A stretch of DNA of 35,935 nucleotides. It comes from an uncultured Mycobacteriaceae bacterium. GTDB taxonomy: Bacteria > Actinomycetota > Actinomycetes > Mycobacteriales > Mycobacteriaceae. The stretch lies in contig CADEGF010000014.1 in the NCBI GenBank assembly GCA_902826815.1, positions 79,881 through 115,815 of the forward strand, given 5' to 3'. Shown here one piece after another: positions 8,443-30,449 of this stretch. Position 1 is the stretch's first letter. Each line of letters opens with the position of its first letter. A model generated the notes under the pieces. It had not been told where the DNA came from and made no database searches. It saw only the letters and a program-made list of their open reading frames with translations. The translations under genes were made by a program, and so were the position numbers.

Positions 8443-8487
8443 TCAGAGCGAGACTTGCTCGCGGCTCGGGCGGACATCACCGATGTC
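8443..8487 (-). pseudogene. Orphan 3' tail of a sugar-ABC ATPase gene
   Basis: Read on the minus strand, this segment encodes DIGDVRPSREQVSL and a TGA stop. The intact ATPase whose stop is at 8701 ends [14 protein letters not shown], so 10 of 14 residues agree. At DNA level 35 of 45 bases match, 22 of them in the 24 nearest the stop, and many differences are at third codon positions. Homology ends abruptly before the Asp and exactly at the stop codon. It is the leftover end of a diverged second copy of the gene. Confidence 0.75.
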
Positions 8488-8700
8488 GGACCGCGGCCGG
8501 ATCACCGAACGTGCAGCCACTGCGAAATTCTGCACGAATTTTCGCAGTACGTTCACGCTCGACGTGCGTTGCCGGAGTTCAGAACACGCCAAGCAGCGTG
8601 CTTGCGTCGGCGTTTGACGATCCGAACCCGGCGCGGGCGGTCGGGGCGATCATCGAGGGGCTCGACTGAGTGGGCGGAGGTCAAACCGCCGACGGCCGGC
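8488..8700. other. Scar-like region with an inverted repeat and a coding-like fragment
   Basis: This 213-base stretch separates the orphan ATPase tail from the intact ATPase. It holds a near-perfect inverted repeat at 8519-8548 (ACTGCGAAATTC against GAATTTTCGCAGT, with a 5-base loop and one unpaired base), which could act as a bidirectional hairpin. A plus-strand frame at 8583-8669 reads AFDDPNPARAVGAIIEGLD at its end and then stops, with codon use like a genuine C-terminus (possibly TetR-like). It has no start of its own and looks like a gene fragment. Confidence 0.45.
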
Positions 8701-9795
8701 TCAGAGCGCGACGTGCTCGCGGCTGGATCGCACGTCCCCGGTATCAGCATCGAAGAAGTACGTCCGCTCCTGCGCCATCTCCAGGCCGATCTTGGTGCCC
8801 GGCTGGTAGTCGGTGCCCGCCGGTCCCTGGATGACCACCCGCGTCGGCGCCGAATCTGACGCTGTGTTCACCAGCGCGGTCACCAGGACGTGGCTGCCAA
8901 GCGGCTCCACGAAGTCGACGCGCGCGGGCACCATGCCCTGCGCGTACTGGCCGTGCAACCGCAGATGCTCGGGCCGCGCGCCGACCGTGACCGGACCGTC
9001 CGGCGTCGATACCGACGACACCACCGTGCCCCCGACGTACAGGACCCCGGACTGAACCTCGCCCGGTATGAGGTTCATCGGCGGGCTGCCCATGAACGCC
9101 GCGACGAATGTGTTCGCCGGATGGTTGTAGATCTCGTCGGGCGTGCCGATCTGCTGCACCTCGCCACCCGCCATCACACATAGCCGGTCGCCGAGCGTCA
9201 TCGCCTCGACCTGATCATGGGTGACGTAGATGGAAGTGACCGGCAGCTCTCGGTGCAATCGCTTCAGGTCGCCGCGGACCTGGTTGCGCAGTTTCGCGTC
9301 GAGGTTCGACAGCGGTTCGTCGAGCAGGAACGCCTGCGGCTGACGAACGAGCGCGCGTCCCATCGCAACTCGTTGGCGTTGGCCGCCGGACAGCTGGCCG
9401 GGCTTGCGGTCGAGTAGCTGGTCGATCTCCAGCAGCTTGGCCGTCTCGCGCACCCGTCGATCGACCTCGGCGCGTGGCGTCTTGCGCTGCCGCAGACCGT
9501 AAGCCAGATTGCGGTACACCGACATGTGCGGGTACAGCGCGTAGTTCTGGAACACCATCGCGATATCGCGCTCACCCGGCGCCAGGCCGTTGACGACCGT
9601 GCTGCCGATCCTGATCTCGCCCGACGTCGGCTTGTCGAGCCCTGCGAGCAGTCGCAGCGCGGTGCTCTTCCCGCATCCAGACGGCCCGACGAGGATCAGG
9701 AACTCCCCGTCGGCCACCGTCAGGTTGAAGTTCTTGAGGGCGACGACATCGCCCGGGTAACGCCGTGTGACGTCACGGAACTCGACTTCCGCCAT
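8701..9795 (-). CDS. ugpC: Sugar ABC importer ATPase (UgpC/MsmK type)
   Basis: The protein has 364 residues with the start at 9795, 2 bases after the upstream permease stop. Walker A GPSGCGKS is at 37-44, the Q-loop at [13 protein letters not shown], the ABC signature LSGGQ at 135-139, Walker B AFLLDEP at 155-161 and the switch His in VTHDQ. After about residue 235 there is a TOBE/MOP regulatory domain typical of MalK/UgpC ATPases that power CUT1 carbohydrate importers. It works at the inner face of the membrane with the two permeases and lipoprotein encoded upstream. It is the last gene of the nine-gene operon; its final 14 codons recur as an orphan at 8443. The symbol denotes the family, not a proven glycerol-phosphate substrate. 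Confidence 0.9.
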
Positions 9796-9797
9796 CC

Positions 9798-10706
9798 TCA
9801 ACCCTTCAATCCGGTGCTCGCGACCGACTGCACGAAGTAGCGCTGCGCTCCGACGAACACCAGGAGCATCGGCAGCAGGCTCATCACGTTGGCCGCCATC
9901 AGCAGGGGCCACTTCACCCGGTGCGCGCCCTGGAAGTAGCTGAGCCCCAACGGGATCGTCATCTGGTCCTGCGTAGTAATGACGATCAGCGGCCACAGGA
10001 AGTCGTTCCACGACGTCAGGACGGTGAGCGCCGCCAACGTCGACAGCGCGGGCAGCGACAAGGGCAGGATGATCTTGAACAGCACGCCGATCCGCGACGT
10101 TCCGTCGACCCGGGCGGCCTCCTCCAGCTCGACGGGCACCGTCAGGAAGAACTGACGCAGGAAGAAGATGCCGAACGCCGTCGCCAGGTTCGGCAGCATC
10201 AGCGCGCCGATGTGGTCGATGCCCAGCCCCTCCCACACGTTGTCACCGAACCACTTGACGATGAGGAACACCGGGATCATCGTGACCTGGAACGGCACCA
10301 TCAGCGTCGCCATCAGGGTGACGAAAAGCGCTCCGCGGCCGAGGAATCGGACACGCGCGAACGCGTAGCCGGCGAGGCTGCAGACGATCAAGTTGCTCGC
10401 GAGAACCACCAGCGTCACCAATGCGCTGTTGAGGAAGAAGTGCCCGAACGGCGCCGACGCCCACGCCTCGGAGTAGTTGGAGAACCGTGGCGACTCGGGG
10501 ATCAGTACCGGCGGAAAGCGATTGGCTTCACCTTCGGTCTCCAGCGAGGTGATGAGCATCCACAGCAGCGGCACGATCAGGATGAAGGTCAACGGGATGA
10601 GGACCAGGTGCCATGGACTGAACGGCAGCCGCCAACGAGAGGTCGGCTGAGGCGACTTGGTAAGCGGCGCAGCCGTTTCGGCGGGCGGCAGTTGTGTGGT
10701 CGTCAT
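9798..10706 (-). CDS. Sugar ABC permease (MalG/UgpE type)
   Basis: This 302-residue membrane protein starts at ATG 10706, overlapping the upstream permease stop by 4 bases. It has a Pro/Thr-rich cytoplasmic N-terminus, a first helix at about 32-52 (HLVLIPLTFILIVPLLWMLI) and about five further helices. The EAA loop reads EEAARVDGTSRIGVLFKIILPLSLP, which docks into the ATPase. The C-terminal motif (GAQRYFVQSVASTGLKG) is typical of MalG-like permeases of CUT1 importers. It pairs with the permease at 10703-11593 to form the channel. The ATPase gene follows after 2 bases. Confidence 0.9.
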   Translation of the reverse strand: MTTTQLPPAETAAPLTKSPQPTSRWRLPFSPWHLVLIPLTFILIVPLLWMLITSLETEGEANRFPPVLIPESPRFSNYSEAWASAPFGHFFLNSALVTLVVLASNLIVCSLAGYAFARVRFLGRGALFVTLMATLMVPFQVTMIPVFLIVKWFGDNVWEGLGIDHIGALMLPNLATAFGIFFLRQFFLTVPVELEEAARVDGTSRIGVLFKIILPLSLPALSTLAALTVLTSWNDFLWPLIVITTQDQMTIPLGLSYFQGAHRVKWPLLMAANVMSLLPMLLVFVGAQRYFVQSVASTGLKG

Positions 10707-11593
10707 GAGTACACGTGCCTGCGGGCGAGCCGGAACTGCACGGCGGTGATCACCAGGATGACGAGGAACAACGCGTAGGCCATCGCCGCGGCGTAGCCGG
10801 CGTCGAATTGCACGAACGCCCGGTCCCACAGGTAGTAGACGATGACGGTGGTGGCGCGCAGCGGGCCGCCGCGGGTGGTGACGTAGACCTCGTCGAAGAG
10901 CTGCAGCGCGTTGATCGTCAGCCAGACGACCATGAACAGGTTCGCGGGCCCGAGCAGCGGAACGGTGATGGTGCGGAACCGGGTGAACGCGGACGCCCCG
11001 TCGATCGCGGCCGCCTCGTGCAGTTCCGGTGGAACACCTTGCAGTGCCGCCAGATACACGATCACCGAAAAACCCGTCCAGCCCCAGATCGTCATCGCCA
11101 CGATCACGTACAACGCTTGCGACGGCGACGCCAGGAACGGCTGCGACGGTGCGCCGACCGCGTTCAGCGCCGCGTTGACCAGCCCGTAGTCACGGTCGGT
11201 CAGCCACAGGAAGATGATGCCCTGCGAGATCGTCGACACCGCCATGGTGATGTAGGCGGCCGTCCGGTAGACCGAGATGAACCGCACCGAGCGGTTCAGC
11301 GCGACGGCGACGAGCAAGCCGACGATCATCGTGCCCGGCACGAACAGGGCCGTGTAGACGATGGTGTGCTTGATCGCCTCGACGAACACCGGGTCGTCGG
11401 CCAGCTTCTTGTAGTTGTCGAAGCCGACCCACGGCGTCTCGTCGCTGAGCAGGTCGGACTTCTGGAACGACAACTGCAGCGACATCAGCACCGGCAGCAG
11501 GCCGAAGATCCCGATCAGGATGGCCGCCGGACTCACCAGCGCCCATCCCGAAACGGTGTCTGTGCGGCTCAGCCGCCGAAGCAGTGCGGGCAT
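10703..11593 (-). CDS. Sugar ABC permease (MalF/UgpA type)
   Basis: This 296-residue protein begins at ATG 11593, giving the N-terminus MPALLRRLSRTDTVSGW; the frame is open further upstream but would run into the binding-protein gene. Six hydrophobic segments are evident. The EAA loop is HEAAAIDGASAFTRFRTITVPLL, and TTRGGPLRATTVIVYYLW is a usual C-terminal motif of the UgpA/MalF group. It is the channel partner of the MalG-like permease and couples to the UgpC-type ATPase. The start lies 7 bases after the binding-protein stop. Confidence 0.9.
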   Translation of the reverse strand: MPALLRRLSRTDTVSGWALVSPAAILIGIFGLLPVLMSLQLSFQKSDLLSDETPWVGFDNYKKLADDPVFVEAIKHTIVYTALFVPGTMIVGLLVAVALNRSVRFISVYRTAAYITMAVSTISQGIIFLWLTDRDYGLVNAALNAVGAPSQPFLASPSQALYVIVAMTIWGWTGFSVIVYLAALQGVPPELHEAAAIDGASAFTRFRTITVPLLGPANLFMVVWLTINALQLFDEVYVTTRGGPLRATTVIVYYLWDRAFVQFDAGYAAAMAYALFLVILVITAVQFRLARRHVYS

Positions 11594-11600
11594 CGACTCC

Positions 11601-12887: not shown

Positions 12888-12899
12888 GGTGACACTCCT

Positions 12900-15202: not shown

Positions 15203-15208
15203 GATGAT

Positions 15209-16186: not shown

Positions 16187-16220
16187 CGCTATAGTCCAAT
16201 CTTCTTCGCGCAGGCGCTCA

Positions 16221-18676: not shown

Positions 18677-18680
18677 TCCT

Positions 18681-18758: not shown

Positions 18759-18770
18759 AGGAGGTGGGCG

Positions 18771-19556
18771 GTGTCGATCAGACGCAACGACCGGATGCGT
18801 GAAGTGCTGTCACTGCTGCGTGACCGGGGCGAAGTGGACTCGCAGAAGCTGCGGGCGGAGCTGGGGGTGTCGGCGGCGACGTTGCGGCGGGACCTGAGCG
18901 AGTTGGAGGAGCAGGGGCTGCTGGTGCGGACGCACGGCGGGGCGCGGGCGCTGGATCCGAGCGGCAGTGAGATTCCGGTGCGGCTGCGTGATCACCGGAT
19001 GATCGCGATCAAGAGGCGGATCGCCCAGCATGCGGCGGCGTTGGTGCCTGCGGGTCCGCAGGCGGTGGCGCTGACGGGTGGGGTGACGACGGGCGAGGTG
19101 GCGCGGTCGTTGAAGGGCCGGCCGCAGATGACGATCGTGACGAACTCGTTGACGATCGCGGCGGACTGCGCGGTGGACGCGCATATGAAGGTGATCATGA
19201 CGGGCGGGTTGGTGCGGCCGAATTCGATGGAGGCGGTGGGCCCGATGAGCGAGCACGCGTTTCAGGTGATCAACGTGGGCACGGCGGTGCTGGGTGCGGA
19301 TGGGATGTCGGCGGAGGTGGGGGCGACGACGTTCGACGAGGCCGAGGCGCGCACGTCGATGGCGATGGCGGCGAACGCGCAGCGGGTCATCGTGCCGGTC
19401 GACGGGTCGAAGATCGGCAAGGTCACGCTGGCAAAGATGGTGCCGCTCAGTCAGATTGACCATCTGGTGACCGACTCGACAGCCGATCGTGGGCAGTTGG
19501 AGCTCATCGCGGCGGCGGGCGTGCAGGTGCACGTGGTTGAGGTGGGCGAGGAGTGA
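18771..19556 (+). CDS. DeoR-family repressor of the sugar operon
   Basis: The protein has 261 residues from a GTG with GAGGAGG just upstream. The N-terminal winged helix-turn-helix spans about residues 5-58, with GVSAATLRRDLSELEEQGLL and the family's THGGAR wing. The C-terminal sugar-phosphate sensor has LTGGVTTGEVARSL, VTNSLTIAAD, the GADGMS motif, a FDEAEA acidic patch and VPVDGSKIGK. DeoR proteins are usually released from DNA by a phosphorylated sugar of their own pathway, here perhaps an amino-sugar or tagatose phosphate. It is divergent from the nine-gene operon. Its last 21 codons recur, 57 of 64 bases identical, at 26824-26887. Confidence 0.9.
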   Translation: MSIRRNDRMREVLSLLRDRGEVDSQKLRAELGVSAATLRRDLSELEEQGLLVRTHGGARALDPSGSEIPVRLRDHRMIAIKRRIAQHAAALVPAGPQAVALTGGVTTGEVARSLKGRPQMTIVTNSLTIAADCAVDAHMKVIMTGGLVRPNSMEAVGPMSEHAFQVINVGTAVLGADGMSAEVGATTFDEAEARTSMAMAANAQRVIVPVDGSKIGKVTLAKMVPLSQIDHLVTDSTADRGQLELIAAAGVQVHVVEVGEE

Positions 19557-19617
19557 ACGTCCGCTGGGAGCTTTAACGCTGAGGCGTAGTGCACAAATCG
19601 TGGTTAGCGTGGACCCC

Positions 19618-20397
19618 ATGATCGCCACGCGCGAAGTCACCTACGACGTCGACGGACTGACGATGGTGGCCCACTTGGCACGGCCAGACGGCAAGGGTTC
19701 CTGGCCGGCAGTGCTCATCGGACACGACGGAATCGGCCTCGATGACTATCAACGCGGCCGCGCCGACGACCTCGCCAAGCACGGCTACATCGCCCTCGCG
19801 ATGGATTACCACGGTGGCCGGACGTTCTTCGGCGACCCGGACGCGATGCTGGCGCGGGTTATGCCGCTGATGGCTGACGCCACCCGCATGCACGCCATCG
19901 GCCGTGCTGCGCTCGACGTCCTGCTTGCTGTGCCCGGCGCCGACCACGACCGGCTCGCAGCGCTCGGATACGGTGCCGGTGGCCGAATCGTGCTGGAACT
20001 TGCTAGCGCGGGAGTGCCATTCAAGGCACTCGCAGCGATCCATCCGGGCTTGCCGGCCGCCCGCGCCGAAGATTGGAATAACGTGGGCGGAGCCTACTTG
20101 CTTTGCACAGGCTCCGAAGACCCACTCTGCACTCCCGATCAACTGTTCGCGTTCACCAGCGCGCTTCAGGATGCCGGAGTTGATTGGCGCGTAAACGTTT
20201 ACGGTGGAGCCAAGCACGCTTTTTGGGCCGCTCCGATGCATCCTGACGGCTCATTGACCGGTGGCAACACCCACGTCGTCGCCACCGTGCCCGGCGTGGG
20301 CCATCACGCTTTGCACGCGACACGCGCGTGGCAGGCGGTGCTAGACCTGCTCGATGAGACAGTTGGAGCTTCGTCGGTTTCGATTCAGCAGCCGTGA
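19618..20397 (+). CDS. Dienelactone-hydrolase-like alpha/beta protein lacking the usual nucleophile
   Basis: The protein has 259 residues from ATG 19618. The fold matches the dienelactone hydrolase family: PAVLIGHDGIGLDDYQRGRADDLAKHGY near the N-terminus, Asp168 in CTGSEDPL and His200 in GGAKHAFW. In the nucleophile elbow, where the family has G-[FY]-C-x-G-G, this protein reads G117-Y-G-A-G-G122, so Gly119 occupies the catalytic position. A Cys codon TGT or TGC to GGT or GGC change would explain it. It may be inactive, use another residue, or only bind ligand. The ribosome-binding site is weak, the gene stands alone, and it is the first gene in the 7.3-kb block between deoR and the orphan deoR tail. 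Confidence 0.8.
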   Translation: MIATREVTYDVDGLTMVAHLARPDGKGSWPAVLIGHDGIGLDDYQRGRADDLAKHGYIALAMDYHGGRTFFGDPDAMLARVMPLMADATRMHAIGRAALDVLLAVPGADHDRLAALGYGAGGRIVLELASAGVPFKALAAIHPGLPAARAEDWNNVGGAYLLCTGSEDPLCTPDQLFAFTSALQDAGVDWRVNVYGGAKHAFWAAPMHPDGSLTGGNTHVVATVPGVGHHALHATRAWQAVLDLLDETVGASSVSIQQP

Positions 20398-20485
20398 CGA
20401 CGGGCTTACTGCTCCGCGGGATGTTCGGCATGTGGAAAACGCGACTCACGGTGCAAAGGCCGCCCGATCGACAAGTTCAGTGGAG

Positions 20486-21496
20486 TCAGGTCGCCGAACG
20501 GCTCGCCCGGTACTGCCGCGGCGTCTGGCCGAACCAGCGACGGCACGACCGGTTCAGCGCGCTCTGCTCGGAATAGCCGAGCAGACCGGCGATCTGCTGC
20601 AGATGCAGTCCCGGCACCGCGAGGTAACGCGCCGCATGCGCCCGACGCTCGCCGTCGATGATGTCGTGGCAGCGCACACCCTCGGCGGCAAGTTGTCGCT
20701 GCAGAGTCCGCGGGTGCAGCGCGAGATGGTCGGCGATGGCCTCGGCACTGCATTGTCCGGTGGGCAGCAGCCGCCTGGTCAGTTCGGCCACGCGTTCGGA
20801 CAGCGCGGCGGTGCTCGGCAGGTAGGTGGATTCCAGGTACTTCGTCGCGATGCGTCGGGTCTCGGGATCGGCGGTGTCGATGGCCTTGTCGGCAACACGC
20901 GCGGACAGCTCGAATCCGCTCCAGGTCTGATTGAAGCGCACCGGGCAGCCCAGCTCCGCGCGGTAGGCGTCCTGTGATCCGTGCTGGCTGTGCATGAACC
21001 TGATCACCCGAGGCCGGGCCTGCGGTCCGCCGAGGAGCCGAAGAATTTGCGCAGCGATACCCATGCTGAGCTCGTAGCTCTGCGTCGGGTACGGAACGCC
21101 GGGCTCGGTCACTTCATACGTGCACTGCACGTCGGACTCCGCAGATGCCCGGCCGACCGTCAGCGTCAACGCGGGGGAATGGACGTACAGGTAGCGCGCG
21201 ATCGCCTCGAAACCACCCAGCACCGTTTGGGCATTGCGGGCGATCACCGCAATGGGTCCGAGAATGTCCAGGCCCTGAAAACGGGAAAGGCGACGCCCGA
21301 AATCCAGGCACTTCAGGTCGTCGGCACTCGCCTCCAGCAAGCGGATGAACGCGTCGACGGGGACGAAGCCGTCTGCTTGCTGTTCGGCGCCGGCGGGAAT
21401 TCCGAAGCGCGCCAGCAGCGACTCGGGGTCGCCGCCCAGTTCGCGCACTAGATCGCCGTAACCCCGCAGGGCCGCGGTGCGCAGCAGACTGCCCAT
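20486..21496 (-). CDS. virS: AraC-family regulator, VirS orthologue candidate
   Basis: The protein has 336 residues, close to M. tuberculosis VirS (about 340). The N-terminal half is the AraC arabinose-binding-like sensor found in this subgroup (residues about 20-205). The C-terminal half carries the two helix-turn-helix units, with SAEAIADHLALHPRTLQRQLAAEG and LHLQQIAGLLGYSEQSALNRSCRRWFG. It is divergent from a mymA-lipR-SDR set exactly as VirS is in M. tuberculosis, where VirS activates the mymA operon under acid stress. Its ribosome-binding site (AGGTGAT) overlaps a 13-base direct repeat in the intergenic gap, suggesting autoregulation. The 88-base gap between its stop and the DLH-like gene holds nothing recognisable. 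Confidence 0.85.
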   Translation of the reverse strand: MGSLLRTAALRGYGDLVRELGGDPESLLARFGIPAGAEQQADGFVPVDAFIRLLEASADDLKCLDFGRRLSRFQGLDILGPIAVIARNAQTVLGGFEAIARYLYVHSPALTLTVGRASAESDVQCTYEVTEPGVPYPTQSYELSMGIAAQILRLLGGPQARPRVIRFMHSQHGSQDAYRAELGCPVRFNQTWSGFELSARVADKAIDTADPETRRIATKYLESTYLPSTAALSERVAELTRRLLPTGQCSAEAIADHLALHPRTLQRQLAAEGVRCHDIIDGERRAHAARYLAVPGLHLQQIAGLLGYSEQSALNRSCRRWFGQTPRQYRASRSAT

Positions 21497-21504
21497 ATCA
21501 TCAC

Positions 21505-21538
21505 CTGTCGGAAAATGATAAAAATCTGTCGGGAAATG
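21505..21538. promoter_or_regulatory. Tandem direct repeat, candidate VirS-binding site
   Basis: CTGTCGGAAAATG (21505-21517) and CTGTCGGGAAATG (21526-21538) match in 12 of 13 bases and start 21 bp apart, two helical turns, on the same face of the DNA. This is the arrangement AraC-family proteins use. The repeat lies 8 bases upstream of the virS start codon and 39 bases upstream of the mymA start. Confidence 0.7.
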
Positions 21539-21577
21539 TCAAGACCCGCAATGTCGCCGACGGCCATCCTGATGGTC

Positions 21578-23053
21578 ATGAACGCACAGCATTTCGACAT
21601 CCTGATCATCGGCGCAGGGCTGTCGGGCATCGGGACGGCCGCCCAGCTGACCGCCGAGTTTCCGCACAAGACCCTCGCTGTGCTGGAGCGCCGCGAGCGC
21701 CTTGGCGGCACCTGGGACCTGTTCCGCTACCCGGGCGTCCGCTCCGATTCGGACATGCTCACCTTCGGCTACAAGTTCCGGCCGTGGCAGGAGCGCAAGG
21801 TGCTGGCCGACGGGCCGTCGATCCGCCAGTACATCGCCGACACCGCTGTCGAATACGGCGTCGACGAGAAGATCCAGTACGGGCTGAAGATCGTCGGCGC
21901 CGACTGGTCGACGGCCGAGAGTCGCTGGACGGTGACCGCGGTGCACGAGGCGACGGGCCAGACGCGCCACTACACGTGTGGCTACCTCATCAGCTGCACC
22001 GGCTATTACAACTACGACGCGGGCTATCTGCCGACCTTTCCCGGCGCCGAGCGGTTCACGGGCCGCTGCGTCCATCCGCAGCACTGGCCAGAAGACCTCG
22101 ACTACACGGGCAAGAAAGTCGTCGTGATCGGCAGCGGCGCAACGGCAGTCACCCTGGTCCCCGCGATGGCGGGCGACGCGGCGCAGGTGACCATGCTGCA
22201 GCGCTCGCCGTCGTATGTGTTCTCCCTGCCCGCATTCGACAAGATCTCACAGGCGCTGGGCCGTTTCCTCGCCGAGGAAAAGGTGTATGCGCTCGGCCGC
22301 AAGCGCAACATCGTGATCCAGCGTTCGCTGTACAAGGCATGTCGGCGCTGGCCGAAGACGATGCGCCGATTCCTGCTGTGGCAGGTGCGCCGTCGCGTCG
22401 GCGCGTCGTTCGACATGAGCCACTTCACCCCGAACTACATGCCGTGGGACGAGCGGCTGTGCGCGGTGCCCGACGGCGACCTGTTCGACGTACTGGCATC
22501 CGGAGAGGCGTCGGTCGTGACTGATCTGATCGAAACCTTCACCGAGACAGGCATTCTGCTGAAGTCGGGCCGCGAGCTGGAGGCGGACATCATCGTCACC
22601 GCGACCGGTCTGAACCTGCAGATGCTCGGCGGTATGGCGCTGTCGGTCGACGGCGAGGCCCGTGAGCTGCACGACGCGATGACCTACAAAGGAGTGCTGG
22701 TGCAGGACATGCCGAACATGGCGTGGATGTTCGGCTACACCAACGCGCCGTGGACACTGAAGTCCGACATGGCCGGTGAGTATCTCTGCCGGCTGATGCG
22801 GCAGATGGACCACAACGGTCATGCGGTGGCGACGCCGCGCGATGTCGAGGGCTGCGCGACGGGCGACGGCATGCTGGACCAACTGCAATCCGGCTACGTG
22901 CAGCGCGGCAAGGACGTCATGCCGCGCCAGGGTTCCAAGCTGCCGTGGCAGGTGCTGATGCACTACGAGAAGGACTCTCGGATGCTGCTCGACGAGCCCG
23001 TCGAGGACGGCGTGCTGTCGTTCGAGGCAACCCGGGTGGAGGCATTCGCATGA
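21578..23053 (+). CDS. mymA: Flavin-containing (Baeyer-Villiger-like) monooxygenase MymA
   Basis: The protein has 491 residues from ATG 21578, the start that matches recalled M. tuberculosis MymA (about 495, beginning MNQHFDVLIIGAG). Starts further upstream would place coding sequence in the regulatory repeat. The FAD site GAGLSG is at 12-17, followed by [19 protein letters not shown]. The Baeyer-Villiger fingerprint [12 protein letters not shown] is present, then the NADPH site [11 protein letters not shown]. Text such as [10 protein letters not shown] and [17 protein letters not shown] agrees closely with MymA as I remember it. The family adds one oxygen from O2 to ketones or heteroatoms; MymA in M. 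tuberculosis is tied to envelope maintenance at low pH. It is translationally coupled to lipR by ATGA. Confidence 0.88.
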
Positions 23054-23964
23054 GCATCCATCCAGGCGTGGTCCGCGCCGCGCTGCGCGGCTGCCGACCG
23101 CTGTTGGCCTCGCGCCGGGTAACGGTCGGCGGCAAGCGCAGAATGTACGACCTGTTCACGCGGGTAGCTCGGGCGCCGAGGGGTACGGGCTATGACTGCG
23201 TCACCATCGCGGGCGTGCCGGTGGAGGGGGTGCGACCGCCGGGGGTGGACTCCGGCGCGACGCTGCTGTACCTGCACGGCGGCGCGTATGCACTGGGTAG
23301 TGCCAAGGGTTATCGCGGCGTGGTGGCGCGGCTCGCCGACGCGGCCGGGATGACGGCGCTGGTGCCCGACTACTCACGGTCGCCGGAGGCGCGGTATCCG
23401 GTTGCACTCGAGGAGATGGTCGCCTTCTATCAAACGCTGATCGCCTGTGGCGTCGAACCGGAAAGTCTTGTCATTGCGGGTGATTCGGCGGGCGGAGGGC
23501 TGGCGTTGGCGTTGGCCATGGCTCTTCGGGATCGCGGGATCCCCGGCCCGGCAGCGATCGGCCTGATCTGCCCGTGGGCCGACCTCGCTATCGACATCGA
23601 CGGCGGACGCCCAAAGACGCGTGATCCGCTGATCAATCCGTCGATGGCCGCCGAGTGGGCGCCGAGGTACGTCGGCGAGCATGACCCGCGGCTGCCCGGC
23701 ATCTCGCCGGCGCGTGGCGACATGGCGGGACTGCCGCCGATCGTGCTGCATTCGGCCGGCGACGATCCGCTGTGTATCGATGCGGACAAGATCGAGAAGG
23801 CCGCCGCAGAAGCGGGAACAGGGCTCGTCGAACACCGCAGGTTCGATGGCCTGTGGCACGACTTTCATCTGCAGGCCGGTGTTCTCGCCGAGGCCGACGC
23901 GGCGATCAAAGACATGGGCGCGCGGCTGCGCACCCTCATGACCGAAAAGGAAGCAGCGATATGA
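23050..23964 (+). CDS. lipR: HSL-type acetyl-hydrolase/esterase LipR
   Basis: The protein has 304 residues; the start at 23050 overlaps the mymA stop. It is a hormone-sensitive-lipase-type alpha/beta hydrolase with oxyanion motif HGG at 76-78, nucleophile elbow GDSAG at 144-148 (Ser146), acidic residue in AGDDP at about 237-240 and His270 in LWHDFH. The similarity to M. tuberculosis LipR (Rv3084) runs throughout, including [10 protein letters not shown] and [16 protein letters not shown]. No signal peptide is visible, so it is probably cytosolic or membrane-peripheral. The likely role is hydrolysis of the ester formed by the monooxygenase or of a lipid intermediate in the same pathway. The next gene starts in its stop codon. 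Confidence 0.87.
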
Positions 23965-24797
23965 GTTCGTTCGAGGGCAAGGTCGCCGTCATCACCGGCG
24001 CGGGTTCGGGAATCGGCAGGGCGCTGGCACTCGATCTCGCGGCAAGGGGCGCAAAGCTGGCGCTGTCTGACATCGACGCCGACGGTCTCGCGGAGACGGT
24101 GCGCGCCGTGGAGATGTTTGGCGCCGAGGTGAAGGCCGACCGGCTGAACGTCGCCGAACGGGAAGAGGTGCTGGCCTACGCCGACGATGTCGTCGCGCAC
24201 TTCGGCGCGGTGCACCAGGTGTACAACAATGCCGGCATCGCCCACAACGGCAACGTCGAGGATTCCGACTTCAAGGACATCGAACGGATCATGGACGTCG
24301 ACTTCTGGGGTGTCGTCAACGGCACCAAAGCGTTTCTGCCGCATGTGATCGCGTCGGGCGACGGACACATCGTGAACATATCGAGCCTGTTCGGCCTGAT
24401 CGCGGTGCCGGGTCAAAGTGCCTACAACGCAGCGAAGTTCGCGGTCCGTGGTTTCACCGAGGCTTTGCGGCAGGAGATGCTGGTCGCCGGGCATCCGGTG
24501 AAGGTGACGTGTGTGCATCCCGGCGGGATCAAGACCGCGGTCGCCCGCAATGCGACCGTCTGCGACGGCGAGGATGCGCAGACGTTCGCGGAGTTCTTCG
24601 ACAAGTACCTGGCGCTGCATTCACCGGAGATGGCCGCGGCGACGATCGTCGACGGTGTCCGCGATGGCCGAGCACGGGTGGTGATCGGCTGGGAGGCCAA
24701 AGCCCTCGACGCGATGGCACGGCTCACGGGGTCGGGGTATCAGCGATTGATGGCCACCGCGGTTCGGCGGTTCTTCCCGTGGGCCAACAAGCGCTGA
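23961..24797 (+). CDS. Short-chain dehydrogenase/reductase, Rv3085 type
   Basis: The protein has 278 residues; its ATG overlaps the lipR stop by 4 bases. It is a classical SDR: cofactor loop TGAGSGIG at 12-19, Asp37 in ALSDID suggesting NAD(H) preference, NNAG at 89-92, and a Ser-Tyr-Lys triad in NISSLFG (Ser141/142), Y155 and K159. It closely resembles the third gene of the M. tuberculosis mymA operon (Rv3085, sometimes called sadH). It probably oxidises or reduces the alcohol/ketone handled by MymA and LipR. In M. tuberculosis the operon continues with adhD, Rv3087, Rv3088 and fadD13; here it ends after this gene and faces a convergent broken gene. Confidence 0.85.
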
Positions 24798-24821
24798 TTG
24801 CGGGCAGCGCGTGTGCTGCGG

Positions 24822-25340
24822 TCAGGCCATCTCGGGCACACGCAGGTGAGCGAGTGCCAACTCGAAGTCGCACTGGTCGAGTACCTCTGCGTTTGCTTCC
24901 TGGCTGCCCGTGGCCTTGATCATGTCCAGCTGGTCCTTGTTCTGCTCAATCGCTTCGGCGTTGTCGAAGGTCGCCGCGGCCACTCCGCGACCGGAGGCCC
25001 GGTCGACGAGCAGGCTGGCACTACAGAATCCGTCCAGTTCCTCGAGGGCGGGCAGGATGGTCGCCTTGTAGAACTCGACGCCCCCGTCGAGTTGATCCGG
25101 ATCGACCTTGACCCAGGTGGCCCGAGCGCAAGCGCCCTCACCTGCGCGGTGCTCGCGGTGCATGGCAGCGATCTCTCATTCCTCGATTTGGGCGCCACCA
25201 CCGAATAGCTCCGCGGCCCGGTCACGAATCGGCCGGAGGGACTCCGCGCTCGCGCGCATTGCCTCCTCGGACTCCCAGGACCGGCTGCGCACCCGGACAA
25301 TACGCCCTTCGCAATCAAGCACAACTAACGATTCCTGGGG
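24822..25340 (-). pseudogene. Broken two-domain antibiotic-biosynthesis-monooxygenase-like gene
   Basis: On the minus strand one frame runs from the lysin stop (25341) to 24822, interrupted only by a TGA at 25176-25178. The upstream half reads LVVLDCEGRIVRV then SWESEEAMRASAESLRPIR and IEE before the stop. The downstream half continues [15 protein letters not shown], then [20 protein letters not shown] and ends [12 protein letters not shown]. In intact actinobacterial relatives, as I recall them, the two halves join as EEWEI, so a Trp codon TGG has become TGA. The first 30-40 residues are also missing. The 113-residue second half (ATG 25163) could still be made as a single ABM-like domain. 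Relatives are small dimeric heme- or quinone-associated proteins of unknown role. Confidence 0.7.
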
Positions 25341-26597
25341 TCAGGAGCCGGCCTTGGGCGCACGCTGTGAGCGGGTCTTCTTCGCCGGCTTGGCTTGGGA
25401 GCGGGCTGGTTTTGTCGGCTTCGGTTTCGCGGCGGCAGACCTTTTTGGAGCCGTCTTCGTCGGAGGCTCGTGCGCGGCGGTGAGCATGACACGATCGTCT
25501 TCGCCTGTGGGCTCGCCCTCGGCTGCGGCGCCGATACCGCAAGCAGCTGCGTACTGCTCAGGGGTGAGCCCATCGGCGGAATCCATGCAGCAGTTCCCGA
25601 ATGGCGGACACCCCTCCGGCAGACCGCCGCCGAAACCCTCCCCGTTGGTGTACTGATGGGCAACTTTGCCGGGGTAGCCGGGGTTTGATCCATAGGCGGC
25701 GAGAACGATCCGAAGCCCGACGGGTTTGTCGGGCCAAAGACTGTTCAGGTCGCCCCTGTTGCCGTAGGCGATGACGCGTCGCCGATCGCCCAGCCAGTCC
25801 GCGACCGCCTGGTAGGCCTTGTTCAATCCATCGGACTGGTTGCCGGTGATCTGTCCCTGCCAGCTCTCCACATCGATCATCACCGCCATCCGTGGATGAG
25901 GCGGTCCAACAAGGTCTTTGAGCGTGTCAACGGTCTGCTGCCAGTTCTTCCGCCAGACGAAGTAAACGATGAAGAAGACAAGCGCATTCTCGTCGCAGCG
26001 TCTCTTGCACCAGGCGTAGTTCGATGCCCAGTTCCTGTCCCGATACGTGCCGTCGTTGGACCGGATGGCGAGCACCCGATAGGGGTAGGAATCATCCACC
26101 GGGCGTTGCCATTCCGACACGTCGGCATACAAGGTGTCGGTCACCGGGACCGCCGCGGCCGCGAGGGTGGTTTCTGGATCCAGCGCGCCCGCCAGCCACG
26201 GCATGGGATCAATTTGAGAGCCCGCCCGCCAGACAGTGGGATGCACTTCGAAGTGCAGGTGTGGGCCGGAGGATTGGCCGTTGCTTCCCACATAGGCGAT
26301 GTGCTGACCGGCGGCCACGCTGTCGCCCAGCCTCAGACCGGTGGCAAAGGCGTCCCACATGTGGCCGTAGACGGTGGTGCCGCCTCCTGCTGGACGAGGG
26401 TGGTCGAGCACGATCCACTGGCCGAAACCCTGTGCCGCTCCGATGTATTTAACGGTTCCGGCTTGCGCTGCGTAGATGCGCGTGCCGTCATTGGCTGCGA
26501 AGTCTTGCCCCCAATGCATCTGACGGCCGCGCGGACCAAAGGGCGACGACAGGTGATATGTCCCCGTCTTCAGCGGCACGTACCTACTCGCCGCCAT
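25341..26597 (-). CDS. M23 peptidase plus GH25-like muramidase, two-domain cell-wall lysin
   Basis: The protein has 418 residues from ATG 26597, with GGGAG about 8 bases upstream; a GTG at 26606 is the alternative. Domain 1 (about 10-135) is a LytM/M23 zinc endopeptidase with H28xxxD32 (MHWGQD), YGHM (His79) and H113-L-H115. Domain 2 (about 155-320) resembles a GH25-like hydrolase: YADVSEWQ, MIDVESW (Asp242, Glu244), VIAYGNRG and HQYTNG. A Cys-rich patch follows (CPPFGNCCMD), then a Lys/Ala/Pro tail. No signal peptide or membrane helix is seen, so release would need a phage-type or non-classical route. The pairing is common in phage lysins and tail enzymes. It lies between two truncated genes. 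Confidence 0.78.
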   Translation of the reverse strand: MAASRYVPLKTGTYHLSSPFGPRGRQMHWGQDFAANDGTRIYAAQAGTVKYIGAAQGFGQWIVLDHPRPAGGGTTVYGHMWDAFATGLRLGDSVAAGQHIAYVGSNGQSSGPHLHFEVHPTVWRAGSQIDPMPWLAGALDPETTLAAAAVPVTDTLYADVSEWQRPVDDSYPYRVLAIRSNDGTYRDRNWASNYAWCKRRCDENALVFFIVYFVWRKNWQQTVDTLKDLVGPPHPRMAVMIDVESWQGQITGNQSDGLNKAYQAVADWLGDRRRVIAYGNRGDLNSLWPDKPVGLRIVLAAYGSNPGYPGKVAHQYTNGEGFGGGLPEGCPPFGNCCMDSADGLTPEQYAAACGIGAAAEGEPTGEDDRVMLTAAHEPPTKTAPKRSAAAKPKPTKPARSQAKPAKKTRSQRAPKAGS

Positions 26598-26823
26598 CGG
26601 ACACACTCCCAGACAGCGTGTCTTCCGCGACGACAGTATTTGTTCTCACCACTCGAACCCCTCCTTCAGCTGCAACTGGCTCTGGTACCACAGCCGTAGA
26701 CCGACTGTTGTCGGCGTGTCTTGCGCTGCTAGGGCGGTGACTGCGGCACCTTTCGTAGTTTGTGAGGACTGCCGAAAGTAATGATGCCGCGACCGCTGTA
26801 ACCGCGGGTCCAGATTTACAGCA
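26598..26823. other. Upstream region of the lysin gene
   Basis: This 226-base non-coding stretch lies between the lysin start and the orphan deoR tail. It contains a short hairpin CCGAC-TGTT-GTCGG near 26700 and a spaced CTTTCG/CGAAAG pair near 26752-26781 that recalls the half-sites of the palindrome before the protease gene, but the match is only six bases. I see no clear promoter and no gene. Confidence 0.35.
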
Positions 26824-26887
26824 GCAGTTGGAGCTCATCGCGGCTGCCGGCGTGAACGTGCACGTGGTCGAGGTGGGCGACGACTGA
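26824..26887 (+). pseudogene. Orphan 3' tail of a deoR-type regulator gene
   Basis: The segment encodes QLELIAAAGVNVHVVEVGDD and a TGA stop, matching the end of the intact DeoR at 19493-19556 (QLELIAAAGVQVHVVEVGEE). At DNA level 57 of 64 bases match, with the first 21 identical, and most changes are synonymous or conservative. Similarity begins abruptly at 26824 and ends at the stop codon. There is no start codon or DNA-binding domain, so it is a remnant. Confidence 0.85.
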
Positions 26888-27053
26888 CGAGAATCAGCGC
26901 GGAAATATTGAAAGACAATTACTTTCGCACCGCCGCGGTCGCCGGAGCGTAGAGTGGATTGTATCGGCGGTATATCGCACGCGACCACCTGAGATTGTGT
27001 CATCGCCGATTCGATTGTATTGAGCAGTTCGAGGCTCAGACGGGATCCTTCCC

Positions 27054-27497
27054 ATGGCTGTAAAAGAAGGCACGGCCGTCTCGGCGGACCGTCACGCGGG
27101 CCCCGAGAACACGCCGCGACTGTGGTTGAAGCGCAAGGCGCCCATCAGCGGGTTTGTCGACGGAGCGTGGTGGCCGAACAGTGATGATCTGCCCACAGAG
27201 CTGCCCGATCTACTGTCGGTGCTGTCAGTGCGCCTCGGCGTCGTTGCTCGGGTGATGTACAACGTCGACGAGTGGTCGATAGCACCGCGGCAAATGGTAG
27301 TCGGCGGACACAAGGTTCGGCTCGACGGATATCACCGCCAGCCGCCCAACACGCTCGAGGTTCTGGACGCGCGTGGCAACAGGATCGTGCTGCTGGTAGT
27401 CCCGGCTCGAACCGAACCTGACCGTGCCCACTCCATCGTGATGGCCGCCGCGGCCACCGGCGATGCCACGAGTGTCGAATCCCTCCTCGCGGTCTAA
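27054..27497 (+). CDS. DUF5994-like protein
   Basis: This 147-residue soluble protein has the features GFVDGAWWPNSDDLPTELPDLL (about residues 33-54), RVMYNVDEWSIAPRQMVVGG and KVRLDGYHRQPPNTLEVLDARG, followed by a hydrophobic strand LVVPARTEP and a disordered tail. These are the hallmarks, as I remember them, of the actinobacterial family DUF5994, whose role is unknown. The Trp-rich start and later strands suggest a compact alpha/beta fold. The 166 bases upstream (26888-27053) are AT-richer than the surroundings and likely hold its promoter, but I could not pick out a sigma-factor consensus. It seems co-transcribed with the HPF-like gene 23 bases downstream. Confidence 0.68.
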   Translation: MAVKEGTAVSADRHAGPENTPRLWLKRKAPISGFVDGAWWPNSDDLPTELPDLLSVLSVRLGVVARVMYNVDEWSIAPRQMVVGGHKVRLDGYHRQPPNTLEVLDARGNRIVLLVVPARTEPDRAHSIVMAAAATGDATSVESLLAV

Positions 27498-27520: not shown

Positions 27521-27943
27521 ATGAACACGTACAACCACACCGAAACCGCGATGGCCGAAGATGACGTCCAGCAACGAAACGCCTTTCGCGAGAACGCGAT
27601 CCATGTCGGCGTCGGCTTCGTGGCGAAGGAACATGCGTACGTTGTCGACATGTTGTCAGCGCTCGGGCACCACCTGGGCAGGTGGGACCCGAGAAATGTG
27701 GTCCTGGACGTCTCCCTGCAGGACCGCGGCGGCAGGGAGCAGCGCGTCACTTTGCGCACTACCCTGCCCGGCCGGCAGCCGTTGATAGCGGTTGCTGAGA
27801 ACCCGGACATCAACCACGCGCTCTCCGAGGCGAAGCGTGAGCTGATCCGCCAACTCGAACACCAGAAGTCGGGGAACGAGCCCATGAAAGACCGTCGGCT
27901 CCGGCGGGCCACGATCCGGCACCCCGCCACCGCGGGCAGATAG
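27521..27943 (+). CDS. Ribosome-hibernation-factor (HPF/RaiA)-like small protein
   Basis: This 140-residue protein has AAAGGAG about 9 bases upstream of the ATG. After a short polar N-terminus it shows a beta-alpha-beta pattern like the S30AE/HPF fold: IHVGVGFVAKEHAYVVDML, a helix, VVLDVSLQDRGGREQRVTLR and LPGRQPLIAVAENPDINHAL. A basic helix SEAKRELIRQLEHQK and an EPMKDRRLRR tail resemble the rRNA-contacting end of HPF-type proteins. If the assignment holds, it would dock in the small ribosomal subunit during stress. It lacks the long C-terminal dimerisation domain of long HPF. Its place between a DUF5994-like gene and a small conserved protein gene suggests a dormancy/stress set; this is inference. 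Confidence 0.58.
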   Translation: MNTYNHTETAMAEDDVQQRNAFRENAIHVGVGFVAKEHAYVVDMLSALGHHLGRWDPRNVVLDVSLQDRGGREQRVTLRTTLPGRQPLIAVAENPDINHALSEAKRELIRQLEHQKSGNEPMKDRRLRRATIRHPATAGR

Positions 27944-28108
27944 TGGGGCAGGCATGACGCACACAACCGGTGTACGCGTTGTCGGCAATCATGCGGGTAT
28001 CAGCCTCAGTGCCAGACAAAGGGAAATGGCTTTGGCCCAGGCAGTCTGGGATTACGAAGGCGGGTCGGTGTCCGGCGGTGCCGAGGGGCTACCGCAGGCA
28101 CCGTCTCA

Positions 28109-28137
28109 CGAACATGCCCGACTAAGAAGGAAACCTC
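28109..28137 (+). promoter_or_regulatory. Leader of the 53-aa gene, conserved in its paralogue
   Basis: CGAACATGC at 28109 begins a block shared with 8249. It includes the three-codon frame ATG-CCC-GAC-TAA at 28114-28125, whose stop merges with the ribosome-binding site AAGAAGGA. The 165 bases between the HPF-like stop and this leader contain no gene I can support. Confidence 0.6.
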
Positions 28138-28299
28138 ATGGCTTCGCCAACAATTACCCGCACGCCCTACGACGTACGCGTCCAGCTCGTCGAGGACATC
28201 ATCAAGAAGCACTCGAAAAAGATTGGCGACGACGCGGCAGGCGAATTGGCCGTGCAGATCCTCTTCGCGCTCAATTCAATCCCCGAGAAGATCCGCTAA
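28138..28299 (+). CDS. 53-residue conserved small protein (second paralogue)
   Basis: The protein begins MASPTITRTPYDVRVQLVED and ends LNSIPEKIR; 39 positions are identical to the 52-residue protein at 8278. It has one extra Lys in HSKKIGD. It is predicted to be almost entirely helical and is charged (Lys/Asp/Glu), with no Cys, signal peptide or membrane segment. Relatives are small actinobacterial proteins that I believe belong to DUF6307. Like its paralogue it faces an orphan minus-strand gene tail, here 39 bases past its stop. Its neighbours (DUF5994-like, HPF-like) hint at a stress-linked role. Confidence 0.8.
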   Translation: MASPTITRTPYDVRVQLVEDIIKKHSKKIGDDAAGELAVQILFALNSIPEKIR

Positions 28300-28338
28300 G
28301 CACCCGGGGTCCTCGAGCAGGCCCAGGCTTGTGCAGTT

Positions 28339-28375
28339 TCATCGCCGGGCGGAGACCCACTGGCCGACTCGCGCG
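28339..28375 (-). repeat. Copy of the Gfo/Idh gene 3' end, distal direct repeat
   Basis: These 37 bases match 30413-30449 in 34 positions, with a 22-base identical run. In the minus strand both encode ARVGQWVS followed by a few codons and the stop. This copy is in frame with the protease gene and forms its last codons; homology ends at the stop codon. Confidence 0.85.
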
Positions 28376-30315
28376 GTAGGGAGCTCTGTCAATGCCTTTC
28401 CGATCCGCCTGACGTCCTCGCTGGAAACGTCGAGTTCATCCGCGACGTCGGCAACGAGGCGACTCGCGGCGAACGGCATCGTCAGCGACAGTTCGAACAG
28501 CGACTTGAACACCGGAGCCAACTCAGTGAACTGGTGGTCTTTGACGAACTCGCGAATGAACTTCGGGTTGACGATGGTGAGCTCGTCCGGGGGCAACTGA
28601 CGTGCCTCGTCGGCGATCCTCGCCAGACACGCGCCCTGTGCCTCGATAGCTTCCTTCGGCAGTCTCAAGGAGAACGTCGTCAATACGGCATCGGCGGTAA
28701 CGGTGGCCAACGCCTGTGGGATGTGCGCGCCTTCCGCAACACGGGCCGTGACCGACAGTGTCCACTCACCGTCGCCCCTCGGAACCGAGACGATCGCCTT
28801 GTGCTTGTCGAAGCCGACGACCACGTCGATCTGCTTGGTGATCGTTGCCGGTGTTCCCTTGCTGACCGGTACCTTCACCGGGACTGTGATCGTCAGTCCT
28901 ACCGGCGCGGGTGATGGCGTCGTCGGATCGATCCAGCCGGGGACCGTGACGCCGTTGACGGCCCACTGCACCACCGCTGAGGTGAACCCGGAGTATTCAG
29001 CTGTCGCGGTGACGTCGTAGCCGTTCTCGCGGTGCACCAGCCGAAATTCCCTTGTGCCGCAGCTATGTCCGACTCCCGACACGGGAACGAGGTCGCCGGG
29101 CAGGACAAGCGGGAGCACGATCTTGGGCGCCAGCGTCAGCTTCGCTTCGTGCAACGTCGGAAGTCGCCGACCGACAAGGAGCAGCACTGCATCGGGTGAA
29201 TGATCGATCACCCGGACACCGGTGCGCCCGTCAGTCCAGTCCTGGTCGCCGCCTGGCACGGTTACGGTGTGCCGATAATTGACCCGATCGACTGGCCCGT
29301 CGTTGGGCGCACCGTCGTCGCGCAGGATCCGGTGGACGACGACACCGGGGTGCGGACGTTCGAGGTTGGGCCTGACCAAACCCGGCCCACTACCCAGGCC
29401 GCGGTCCCAACCTGTCGCCGGCCGGTATTCGAACGTCGTCCAGGACGGATAGGCGTCGGTGGAAGGGATCGCGACCAGCGTAGTGCGGTTTGGCATGCCC
29501 GCGCGGTAGAGCGTGACCAGCGTCGGCGATGCGGCGGGCGGAAGCTTTTGCACCCAGGCCATGTCGGGGGCCGTGAATTTTGCCATGGCATCTCGTGACG
29601 CGCAGTAGCGCCACAGCTGCGCGGGCGATAGGCCGGGACCGGCACCGAGATGGTCGGCGTTGTCACCCCACAACAACGTGTGCGGGAAGCGGCGCGCGGT
29701 GTTGGGAATGCGAAAAGTGGGATCCGTTGCGCCGTATCGCGCCGACGACATGGCATCCACTGGATCGTCGTAGGTTCCCCACTGGTCCACCGAATGTAAA
29801 GGGCCCGACGAGTGGTCGTAGCCGAGTACGTGGCCGATCTCGTGAACGTAGAAGTTGAACGAGGCGCCGAGATTCAGGTAGGCGGCCGGGTACCCCTGGT
29901 CATCGATCAGCGCCCCGGTTGCACCGCCGGCCGCAGCCGGACTGGCGAGCTGGCCGGTGAGTTGGCTGGTAGAGGTGAAAATCACCAGGCCGTCGAAACT
30001 CGACGGCAGCGACTTCGGGAACTTGGTAGCGAGATAGCGCGCGGCGTGTGTGACGCCGATGGATCGGGTGTCGCCCAGGGGCGCGATGGGCACGAGGCCG
30101 TCGAGCTTGTCGATGTCGTTCTGGTTTGTTCCGATGTTGCGCCAGGGGTGAACGGTGGCTTCGATGTCGCGGGTGCCTGCGGTGACGTCACACCAGTAGC
30201 GCAAGAAGCTGTATTTGTACGCGGGGTCGAACATTGCATCGAGGTCGAACGTCGGTGCAGAGGTTCCTGATGGTCCGGCGTAGATGCCGTAGACGCCGAG
30301 GGTGAATTTCGCCAT
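28339..30315 (-). CDS. Metzincin-like zinc metalloprotease with a captured C-terminus
   Basis: The protein has 658 residues from ATG 30315, with GGGAG 8 bases upstream. The zinc site is H158-E-I-G-H162-V-L-G-Y-D-H168, the extended HEXXHxxGxxH of metzincins, and Met189 in DPVDAMS is a good Met-turn. The catalytic domain covers about residues 1-260. The rest contains beta-rich segments (about 270-520) and an alpha-helical end. There is no signal peptide, pro-region or membrane helix, which is odd for a metzincin. The last eleven residues (ARVGQWVSARR) match the end of the adjacent Gfo/Idh dehydrogenase, not this family, so the native end was probably replaced. Substrate and secretion route are unknown. 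Confidence 0.75.
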   Translation of the reverse strand: MAKFTLGVYGIYAGPSGTSAPTFDLDAMFDPAYKYSFLRYWCDVTAGTRDIEATVHPWRNIGTNQNDIDKLDGLVPIAPLGDTRSIGVTHAARYLATKFPKSLPSSFDGLVIFTSTSQLTGQLASPAAAGGATGALIDDQGYPAAYLNLGASFNFYVHEIGHVLGYDHSSGPLHSVDQWGTYDDPVDAMSSARYGATDPTFRIPNTARRFPHTLLWGDNADHLGAGPGLSPAQLWRYCASRDAMAKFTAPDMAWVQKLPPAASPTLVTLYRAGMPNRTTLVAIPSTDAYPSWTTFEYRPATGWDRGLGSGPGLVRPNLERPHPGVVVHRILRDDGAPNDGPVDRVNYRHTVTVPGGDQDWTDGRTGVRVIDHSPDAVLLLVGRRLPTLHEAKLTLAPKIVLPLVLPGDLVPVSGVGHSCGTREFRLVHRENGYDVTATAEYSGFTSAVVQWAVNGVTVPGWIDPTTPSPAPVGLTITVPVKVPVSKGTPATITKQIDVVVGFDKHKAIVSVPRGDGEWTLSVTARVAEGAHIPQALATVTADAVLTTFSLRLPKEAIEAQGACLARIADEARQLPPDELTIVNPKFIREFVKDHQFTELAPVFKSLFELSLTMPFAASRLVADVADELDVSSEDVRRIGKALTELPTARVGQWVSARR

Positions 30316-30330
30316 TGTTCGACTCCCGCG

Positions 30331-30357
30331 CTTTCGAGTGATGTGTTCACTCGAAAG
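30331..30357. promoter_or_regulatory. Perfect palindrome directly upstream of the protease gene
   Basis: CTTTCGAGTGA (30331-30341) and its exact complement (30347-30357) flank a 5-base centre TGTGT, ending 15 bases before the start codon on the minus strand. No T-tract follows, so an operator is more likely than a terminator. The remainder of 30358-30412 shows nothing recognisable. Confidence 0.65.
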
Positions 30358-30412
30358 TGTCGGCGAGCGACGGAGCGTGCGCGTAAGTAGTCCGGTACTT
30401 CAATCCCACGGG

Positions 30413-30449
30413 TCATCGCTGGACGGAGACCCACTGGCCGACTCGAGCG
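30413..30449 (-). repeat. 3' end of the intact Gfo/Idh gene, proximal direct repeat
   Basis: This is the native copy of the 37-base sequence also found at 28339-28375. It encodes ARVGQWVSVQR and the stop, in the position where Gfo/Idh relatives typically end with an ESARTGRWV-like tail, so it belongs to this gene by origin. Confidence 0.85.

Follow-up and report, generated by a model that had tools for sequence, protein, structure and literature searches.

Why would the 3′ ends of three genes each reappear, detached from their gene bodies, on the far side of their own stop codons? This question is raised by a 35,935-nucleotide stretch of DNA (the window) from an uncultured Mycobacteriaceae bacterium, which corresponds to positions 79881-115815 of contig 14 in a draft genome of 6.87 Mb and 141 contigs. 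The genes concerned encode the ATPase of a sugar ABC transporter, a DeoR-family regulator (deoR), and a Gfo/Idh/MocA dehydrogenase (Gfo), and their positions are collected in Table 1. We favor the explanation that the detached copies, called orphan tails here, come from earlier, diverged alleles of the same two catabolic operons and stayed behind as stubs when incoming alleles recombined imprecisely. This explanation is tentative, and we give it a probability of about 0.42.

Three recurring gene tails

The initial annotation of this DNA had proposed that the tails of these genes recur, and a comparison of the window with itself bears this out. All three copies were found, each on the same strand as the intact gene and beyond its 3′ end, with one extra copy of the last 45 (ATPase), 64 (deoR), and 37 (Gfo) bases. 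Each copy ends exactly at the stop codon, as had also been claimed. The E-values within the window are 3e-15 for deoR, 9e-9 for Gfo, and 3e-6 for the ATPase. For comparison, the best alignments among eight first-order Markov surrogates (~9-10 kb) reach only 34/64, 24/37, and 26/45 matches for tails of these respective lengths. The ATPase pair is the weakest of the three; its repeat reaches slightly past the core, covering 8438-8487 and 8696-8745 at 76% identity.

The rarity of such repeats can be judged from a scan that took the last 60 bases of each gene with a length of 300 bases or more; of these 1,692 genes, 30 are in the window and 1,662 are in 109 loci longer than 6 kb, many of them overlapping or orthologous with each other. 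The genes were called with a homemade caller, and the M23 and DUF5994 genes are among those that it missed. The scan covered repeats inside a single locus, with locus lengths of up to ~20 kb (36 kb for the window), and it is blind to a tail stub in the relative G396, discussed below, whose parent gene is 28 kb off. At E ≤ 1e-5, stop-reaching repeats on the same strand account for five rows, of which four represent the three window pairs and one is a local tandem repeat in another locus (L128). Relaxing the threshold to 1e-3 adds three further rows, one each from L035, L128, and L129. Controls held to the 1e-5 threshold gave matches for 4 of 1,692 gene starts and 15 of 5,076 internal segments, versus 5 of 1,692 tails. 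These 19 control matches come from eight loci (L044, L121, L122, L124, L198, L214, L215, and L224) and none from the window, and those of L121 and some of those of L124 lie between paralogous glycosyltransferase genes. Because the control rates are similar to that of the tails, what stands out is the occurrence of three pairs within one window. Indeed, such repeats are found for 3 of 30 tails in the window versus 0 of 289 in 20 other stretches of the same genome (Fisher p = 8e-4).

Searches of related genomes covered at most 396 members of the genus in any one search, and many of the loci end at flanks of 1.5-10 kb. When the ATPase tail was used as a query, only the source genome yielded a second match that reaches the stop codon. 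The last 100 bases of deoR matched 12 of 14 genomes, and more than one stop-reaching match was found only in the source genome, which has three; in the other genomes among these 14, no second match extends past base 81. A functional motif shared by the tails was considered and ruled out, given that no common sequence is evident and that the relatives searched lack second stop-reaching copies. No Rfam RNA matches the window over the tails at gathering scores.

The differences between orphan and intact tails are distributed over codon positions 1, 2, and 3 as 1/0/6 for deoR, 2/1/7 for the ATPase, and 0/2/1 for Gfo, such that 14 of the 20 pooled differences are at third positions (p = 9e-4). Since these differences are mainly at third positions, the copies diverged mostly as coding sequence. 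The orphans accordingly belonged to working, diverged alleles until recently, and became stubs only late. We also compared the orphans with sets of distinct tails from relatives and the source genome (54 for deoR, 23 for the ATPase, and 8 for Gfo). The nearest tail to the deoR and Gfo orphans is in each case the intact copy in the same genome, and for the ATPase orphan the tail of Mycobacterium stellerae ties with the resident intact copy at 35/45. Over 8443-8489, this orphan aligns with the M. stellerae ATPase end at 79% identity (E = 2e-4).

The junctions and their counterparts in relatives

At the Gfo junction, the alignment of M. stellerae with the window breaks off at the homologue of position 26821; 40 bases further along, M. 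stellerae matches again, now to 28314-28375, and this match runs into a 147-base Gfo stub and a permease fragment. The 25 bases beside the M. stellerae Gfo tail agree with 28314-28338 at 17 of 25 positions and with the flank of the intact copy at only 4 of 25, and none of 20,000 random 25-mers from the window scored 17 against this flank. Because the M. stellerae flank matches the orphan side and not the intact side, the older arrangement is that of the orphan with its outer flank, and 28376-30412 is additional DNA. Judging from these alignments, the M. stellerae tail and flank are the equivalent of an empty site for the Gfo junction. No empty site was found among the relatives for the ATPase and deoR junctions.

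The initial annotation overlooked that an open reading frame (ORF) of 658 amino acids (28339-30315) ends, in frame, with the Gfo orphan. Reading by eye reveals a zincin-like motif, HEIGH..GYDH, in its product. The ORF had no match at E ≤ 1e-30 in 197 other genomes of the genus, none at E ≤ 1e-10 in 315 other genomes of a phylum sample for which few candidates per genome were scored, and none in Pfam, NCBIfam, PHROG, or PDB. A viral source was considered and set aside, as neither a viral contig nor a PHROG family matched.

Within insert X, which separates the two deoR tails, 20486-25280 is 91% identical and 26612-26821 is 89% identical to M. stellerae, and the left side of the junction up to 26821 is 89% identical to G396 as well. 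No recombinase family is represented among the scanned ORFs of this insert. In both M. stellerae and G396, the homologue of 26821 continues into a gene tail, of which 40 bases are 92.5% alike between the two. The stretch in G396 matches the 3′ end of a gene 28 kb off in locus L172 (83% over 36 bases, E = 5e-4; 70% over 20 residues), and by eye this gene resembles one for an alpha/beta hydrolase. The window retains no more of the hydrolase-like tail than its last codon and stop, and the deoR tail follows with CAG at the join. The hydrolase-like stub is followed in M. stellerae by the Gfo stub and in G396 by a fragment of a gene for a 355-amino-acid protein, an operon truncated in its GH4 gene, and deoR. 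Given these hydrolase-like stubs, orphan tails occur here in relatives too. The left remnant of six bases fits a deletion between two outward-facing gene ends, as it is what such a deletion would leave. The downstream flank of the deoR orphan agrees with the deoR flanks of relatives at no more than 12 of 30 positions, which does not surpass the 13 of 30 for the flank of the intact copy and is uninformative.

As side observations, the tail stubs in relatives are at 18666-18800 of L198 (G396) and 1364-1325 of L169 (M. stellerae), where they follow the region upstream of the M23 gene, and the intact gene end in G396 that is similar to the stub is at 10277-10336 of L172. The region upstream of the M23 gene has different neighbors in three genomes, and the M23 gene itself (25341-26606) resembles phage endolysins (PHROG 880, E = 6.5e-80).

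The account of deoR given in the initial annotation, with two copies of the tail, was right about the second tail and incomplete in that it missed a third, which lies beyond the window. This third copy is a pseudogene with an internal gap located ~3 kb right of the window (3135-3452 of L217), and it is 87% identical to the 3′ part of intact deoR. The two bases that the orphan has in common with the pseudogene at the sites compared are present together in 1 of 53 relatives and singly in 3 and 23. Two other loci (L019 and L020) carry a short repeat of the deoR tail directly after the deoR stop, with a tandem unit of ~24 bp, and represent a small tandem case of tail duplication.

At the ATPase junction, the initial annotation treated 8488-8700 as cargo, and this label hardly suits a dispersed palindromic repeat accompanied by unassigned sequence. 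Other copies of the repeat, which occupies much of 8500-8565, are present elsewhere in the source genome and in G396, M. stellerae (G143), G162, and G394. A stretch at 8480-8564 is also present in G396, downstream of a gene reading like a glycosyltransferase, and it shares ~10 bases with the inner border of the ATPase orphan. For a possible fourth gene tail in 8488-8700 (plus strand, stop near 8668), no convincing relative appeared among the fetched loci. According to the homemade caller, the coding start of the intact ATPase gene, listed in Table 1 as 8701..10236, is probably near 9801.

A further repeat had gone unnoticed. The small genes at 8249-8436 and 28109-28299 form a direct repeat of ~190 bp with 84% identity, and members of this family were found in 44 of 198 genus genomes, the source included, at E ≤ 1e-8. 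Each copy directly precedes an orphan tail on the minus strand, and thus a 20-kb segment is flanked by direct repeats. This arrangement is compatible with insertion of a circle by a single crossover.

Possible origins of the orphan tails

According to the explanation that we favor, incoming DNA would have carried an allele of the operon together with its own 3′ flank, and homology between the genes would have allowed it to recombine with the resident operon. The flank's non-homologous end would have been joined illegitimately to the resident chromosome within the final few dozen bases of the resident gene, giving the order gene body, new tail, new flank (cargo), and old tail. Such a process would amount to homology-facilitated illegitimate recombination, or terminal displacement. 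All three orphans are on the 3′ side of the intact copy, as gene-anchored imprecise recombination would leave them. Furthermore, the intact and orphan tails are alleles of one gene and so provide the homologous anchor, and either of them may be the one that came in. At the Gfo junction, non-homologous DNA has been added next to this anchor; the insert there is unmatched and absent from the M. stellerae tail and flank. By eye, possible microhomology amounts to ~8-10 imperfect bases at the ATPase junction and CAG at the deoR junction, and is undefined at the Gfo junction.

Replacement by diverged alleles that left stubs was one of the interpretations put forward in the initial annotation, and it is sustained by the third-position pattern and, at the Gfo junction, by the empty-site equivalent and the lineage-specific insert. 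Exchange with relatives is also consistent with fourfold-site identities to M. stellerae, which are 0.75-0.79 for perm1, perm2, SBP, g14249, and BadF, 0.67 for GH4, and 0.56-0.65 for the ATPase, SIS, GatZ, and DeoR, with DeoR reaching 0.83 to G396. Because these values are so uneven, alleles seem to have been exchanged here, which suggests that parts of the operon and of insert X were traded with relatives.

Several observations weigh against allele replacement. In general, repeats are no more frequent in gene tails than in control segments, and the Gfo tail taken alone has only one of its three differences at a third position. The deoR orphan is closest to its own intact copy (57/64, compared with 55/64 for M. 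stellerae), which points to no foreign source. The junction there has no empty site, and its left side consists of the last six bases of the tail of another gene. Moreover, the M. stellerae Gfo is itself a truncated stub whose tail agrees with the orphan at 30 of 37 positions and with the intact copy at 32 of 37, and neither donor nor resident haplotypes that have the assumed adjacencies turned up.

Only slightly less probable is that the orphans are remnants of deletion, in which extra, separately acquired operon copies were lost and the outermost bases of each block stayed. Because the nine-gene operon and its divergent deoR have 3′ ends facing outward on both sides, leftover edges would automatically be gene tails. 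Decay is indeed visible at this locus in the form of the deoR pseudogene to the right of the Gfo cluster, after the gene for the 355-amino-acid protein, and in relatives as the fragment of that same gene preceding the truncated operon in G396 and the Gfo stub and permease fragment in M. stellerae. The hydrolase-like stub beside 26821 is longest in G396, 40 bases in M. stellerae, and 6 in the window, and G396, with its stub, truncated operon, and deoR, looks like a less deleted form of the deoR junction, where two cut, outward-facing gene tails meet directly. The fact that this junction abuts the cut end of another gene tail weakens the case for replacement and strengthens that for deletion. 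However, this alternative requires both an acquisition and a deletion for every tail, and it must accommodate three remnants that are all tiny and all 3′ of the intact copy. The sites common to the deoR orphan and the pseudogene are weak evidence for it. Allele replacement is best supported at the Gfo junction, and a simple deletion fits about as well at the deoR junction.

Other explanations appear less attractive. A single incoming block, 8488-26823, may have taken the place of a resident operon that lay between small gene 1 and the DUF5994 gene, with Gfo as a separate event. The ATPase and deoR orphans would then be the two outer edges of one operon, for which their order and orientation are right, and at fourfold sites parts of the block are more like M. 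stellerae or G396 than are the genes that flank it. Nevertheless, we consider this unlikely: the identity is uneven, with the ATPase, GatZ, and DeoR not elevated to M. stellerae, the DLH gene was not found in the fetched relatives, and in no fetched relative does the operon lie between these genes. If mobile elements had integrated site-specifically at gene 3′ ends, the tail repeats would be attachment sites, and in classic gene-end integration the insert does supply a new tail. Against this very improbable origin, no integrase, transposase, or relaxase is present among 30 scanned ORFs, no tRNA was found, and there is no near-identical attachment core, as the repeats are 76-92% identical and differ in sequence and length from junction to junction. 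Of the inverted-repeat pairs listed (25 of the 27 in 19480-26900, and no pair in 28300-30460), none lies at the ends of the inserts. Insertion of a transposon or insertion sequence was likewise rejected, since no end-matching inverted repeats appear among those pairs and the repeats are long and diverged rather than short exact duplications. That the tails reflect chance similarity or an assembly error is scarcely credible, even for a draft of 141 contigs, because the E-values and Markov surrogates speak against the former, copies that are 8-24% diverged are not a usual cause of misassembly, and the Gfo flank is supported by M. stellerae.

Processes resembling the one that we favor are known. 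In homology-facilitated illegitimate recombination, one end is anchored by homology, the other is joined illegitimately, and foreign DNA is added (PMC3240628, PMC5361080). As outlined in those reports, the process was described in naturally competent species and E. coli conjugation, whereas here it would concern three junctions in 3′ tails of a mycobacterium, seen from sequence alone. In rhs tip displacement, an old 3′ gene end is moved downstream behind a new end and intervening genes, and homologous recombination with circular intermediates is the route proposed for it (PMC2935791). The tips of rhs genes are variable, in contrast to the old and new tails here, which are nearly alike; the displaced tail lacks an apparent function, and the products are metabolic. 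A variable C-terminal tip behind a constant core, as in rhs, is not found in the window tails. Type VI secretion effectors of Vibrio cholerae offer a similar parallel, in that incoming modules push old 3′ ends and immunity genes downstream (PMC5361080), but the modules there, as presented in that account, serve antagonism and those here are metabolic operons.

A possible means of delivery is mycobacterial conjugation. Distributive conjugal transfer in mycobacteria reportedly yields mosaic tracts interrupted by short stretches of recipient sequence, and one transconjugant had gained ~55 kb of non-homologous DNA from the donor (PMC3706393); for this locus it would be a plausible route. It can also be imagined, although we regard it as doubtful, that 3′ ends of operon-terminal genes are preferred borders for loading cargo in mycobacteria, with incoming alleles, anchored in the operon, repeatedly undergoing end joining within the last ~60 bases of resident genes. 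If so, orphan tails would record the turnover of metabolic operons as rhs tips record that of toxins. No prior description of orphan metabolic gene tails was found in the literature searched by title and the opening of the abstract, and such descriptions may exist. Orphan tails are short, easily missed marks of the sites at which operons were exchanged or lost and of the alleles involved. Should the pattern turn out to be general, imprecise gene replacement could be detected from genome sequence alone, and a natural system would be at hand for studying the coupling of homologous recombination with end joining in mycobacteria.

Gene order around the junctions

From the three pairs, the initial annotation had also drawn a compact ancestral map, in which removal of the inserts would bring the flanking genes into direct contact. 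This map is unsupported, as the claimed adjacencies occur in no fetched relative, and M. stellerae and G396 have different neighbors at 26821. In counts that include redundant loci, many of which end at 1.5 kb, deoR is followed by the DUF5994, HPF-like, or small gene in 0 of 99 loci (92 with at least 1.4 kb and 44 with at least 5 kb downstream). None of 27 loci has any of these genes beside the ATPase end (19 of the loci extend at least 300 bases downstream), and at the Gfo end they occur in 1 of 16 loci (L129, with the HPF-like gene at 6.5 kb). In G159, an HPF-like gene and the Gfo stop are 5.9 kb apart, a distance that spans two fetched pieces. The GT, GH130, TetR, DUF5994, HPF-like, and small genes of this region are in a different order in G396, G162, G394, G159, G081, and G053. 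The name HPF itself, given in the initial annotation to 27521-27943, finds no backing in any Pfam or NCBIfam model, and we use it only as a label.

Table 1. Positions of the tails, inserts, and neighboring genes in the window
Feature	Position	Strand	Comment
Small gene copy 1 (52 aa)	8278..8436	+	ends 6 bp before ATPase orphan
ATPase orphan tail	8443..8487	-	35/45 to 8701-8745
Segment between ATPase tails	8488..8700		dispersed palindromic intergenic repeat 8506-8561 and unassigned sequence
Intact sugar ABC ATPase, distal in nine-gene operon	8701..10236	-	Pfam ABC_tran, TOBE_2
Intact DeoR-family regulator	18771..19556	+	Pfam HTH_DeoR, DeoRC; best relatives G396 95%, M. stellerae 91%
Insert X between deoR tails	19557..26823		DLH hydrolase, AraC, FMO, alpha/beta hydrolase, SDR, M23 (Pfam)
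Last codon and stop of hydrolase-like gene	26816..26821	-	by eye; tail cut here, continues in M. stellerae and G396
deoR orphan tail	26824..26887	+	57/64 to 19493-19556; 6 of 7 differences at third position
DUF5994 gene	27054..27497	+	Pfam PF19457
HPF-like gene	27521..27943	+	next to GH130 in G396, G159, G081, G053
Small gene copy 2	28138..28299	+	repeat of copy 1
Flank beside Gfo orphan	28314..28338		equivalent to flank of M. stellerae Gfo tail
Gfo orphan tail	28339..28375	-	34/37 to 30413-30449; last 12 codons, including stop, of 658-aa ORF
Insert between Gfo tails	28376..30412		most of ORF 28339-30315 inside
Intact Gfo/Idh/MocA dehydrogenase, distal gene of second sugar cluster	30413..31513	-	Pfam GFO_IDH_MocA

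The truncated operon of G396 extends from 18950 of L198 to 4482 of L199; it breaks off inside GH4 and retains deoR with its stop codon shifted downstream, and an ATPase tail was not found in it by search. To the right of the window, across a run of N with a 55-base overlap and collinear with G159, are a gene for a ROK regulator, the gene for the 355-amino-acid protein, and the deoR pseudogene.

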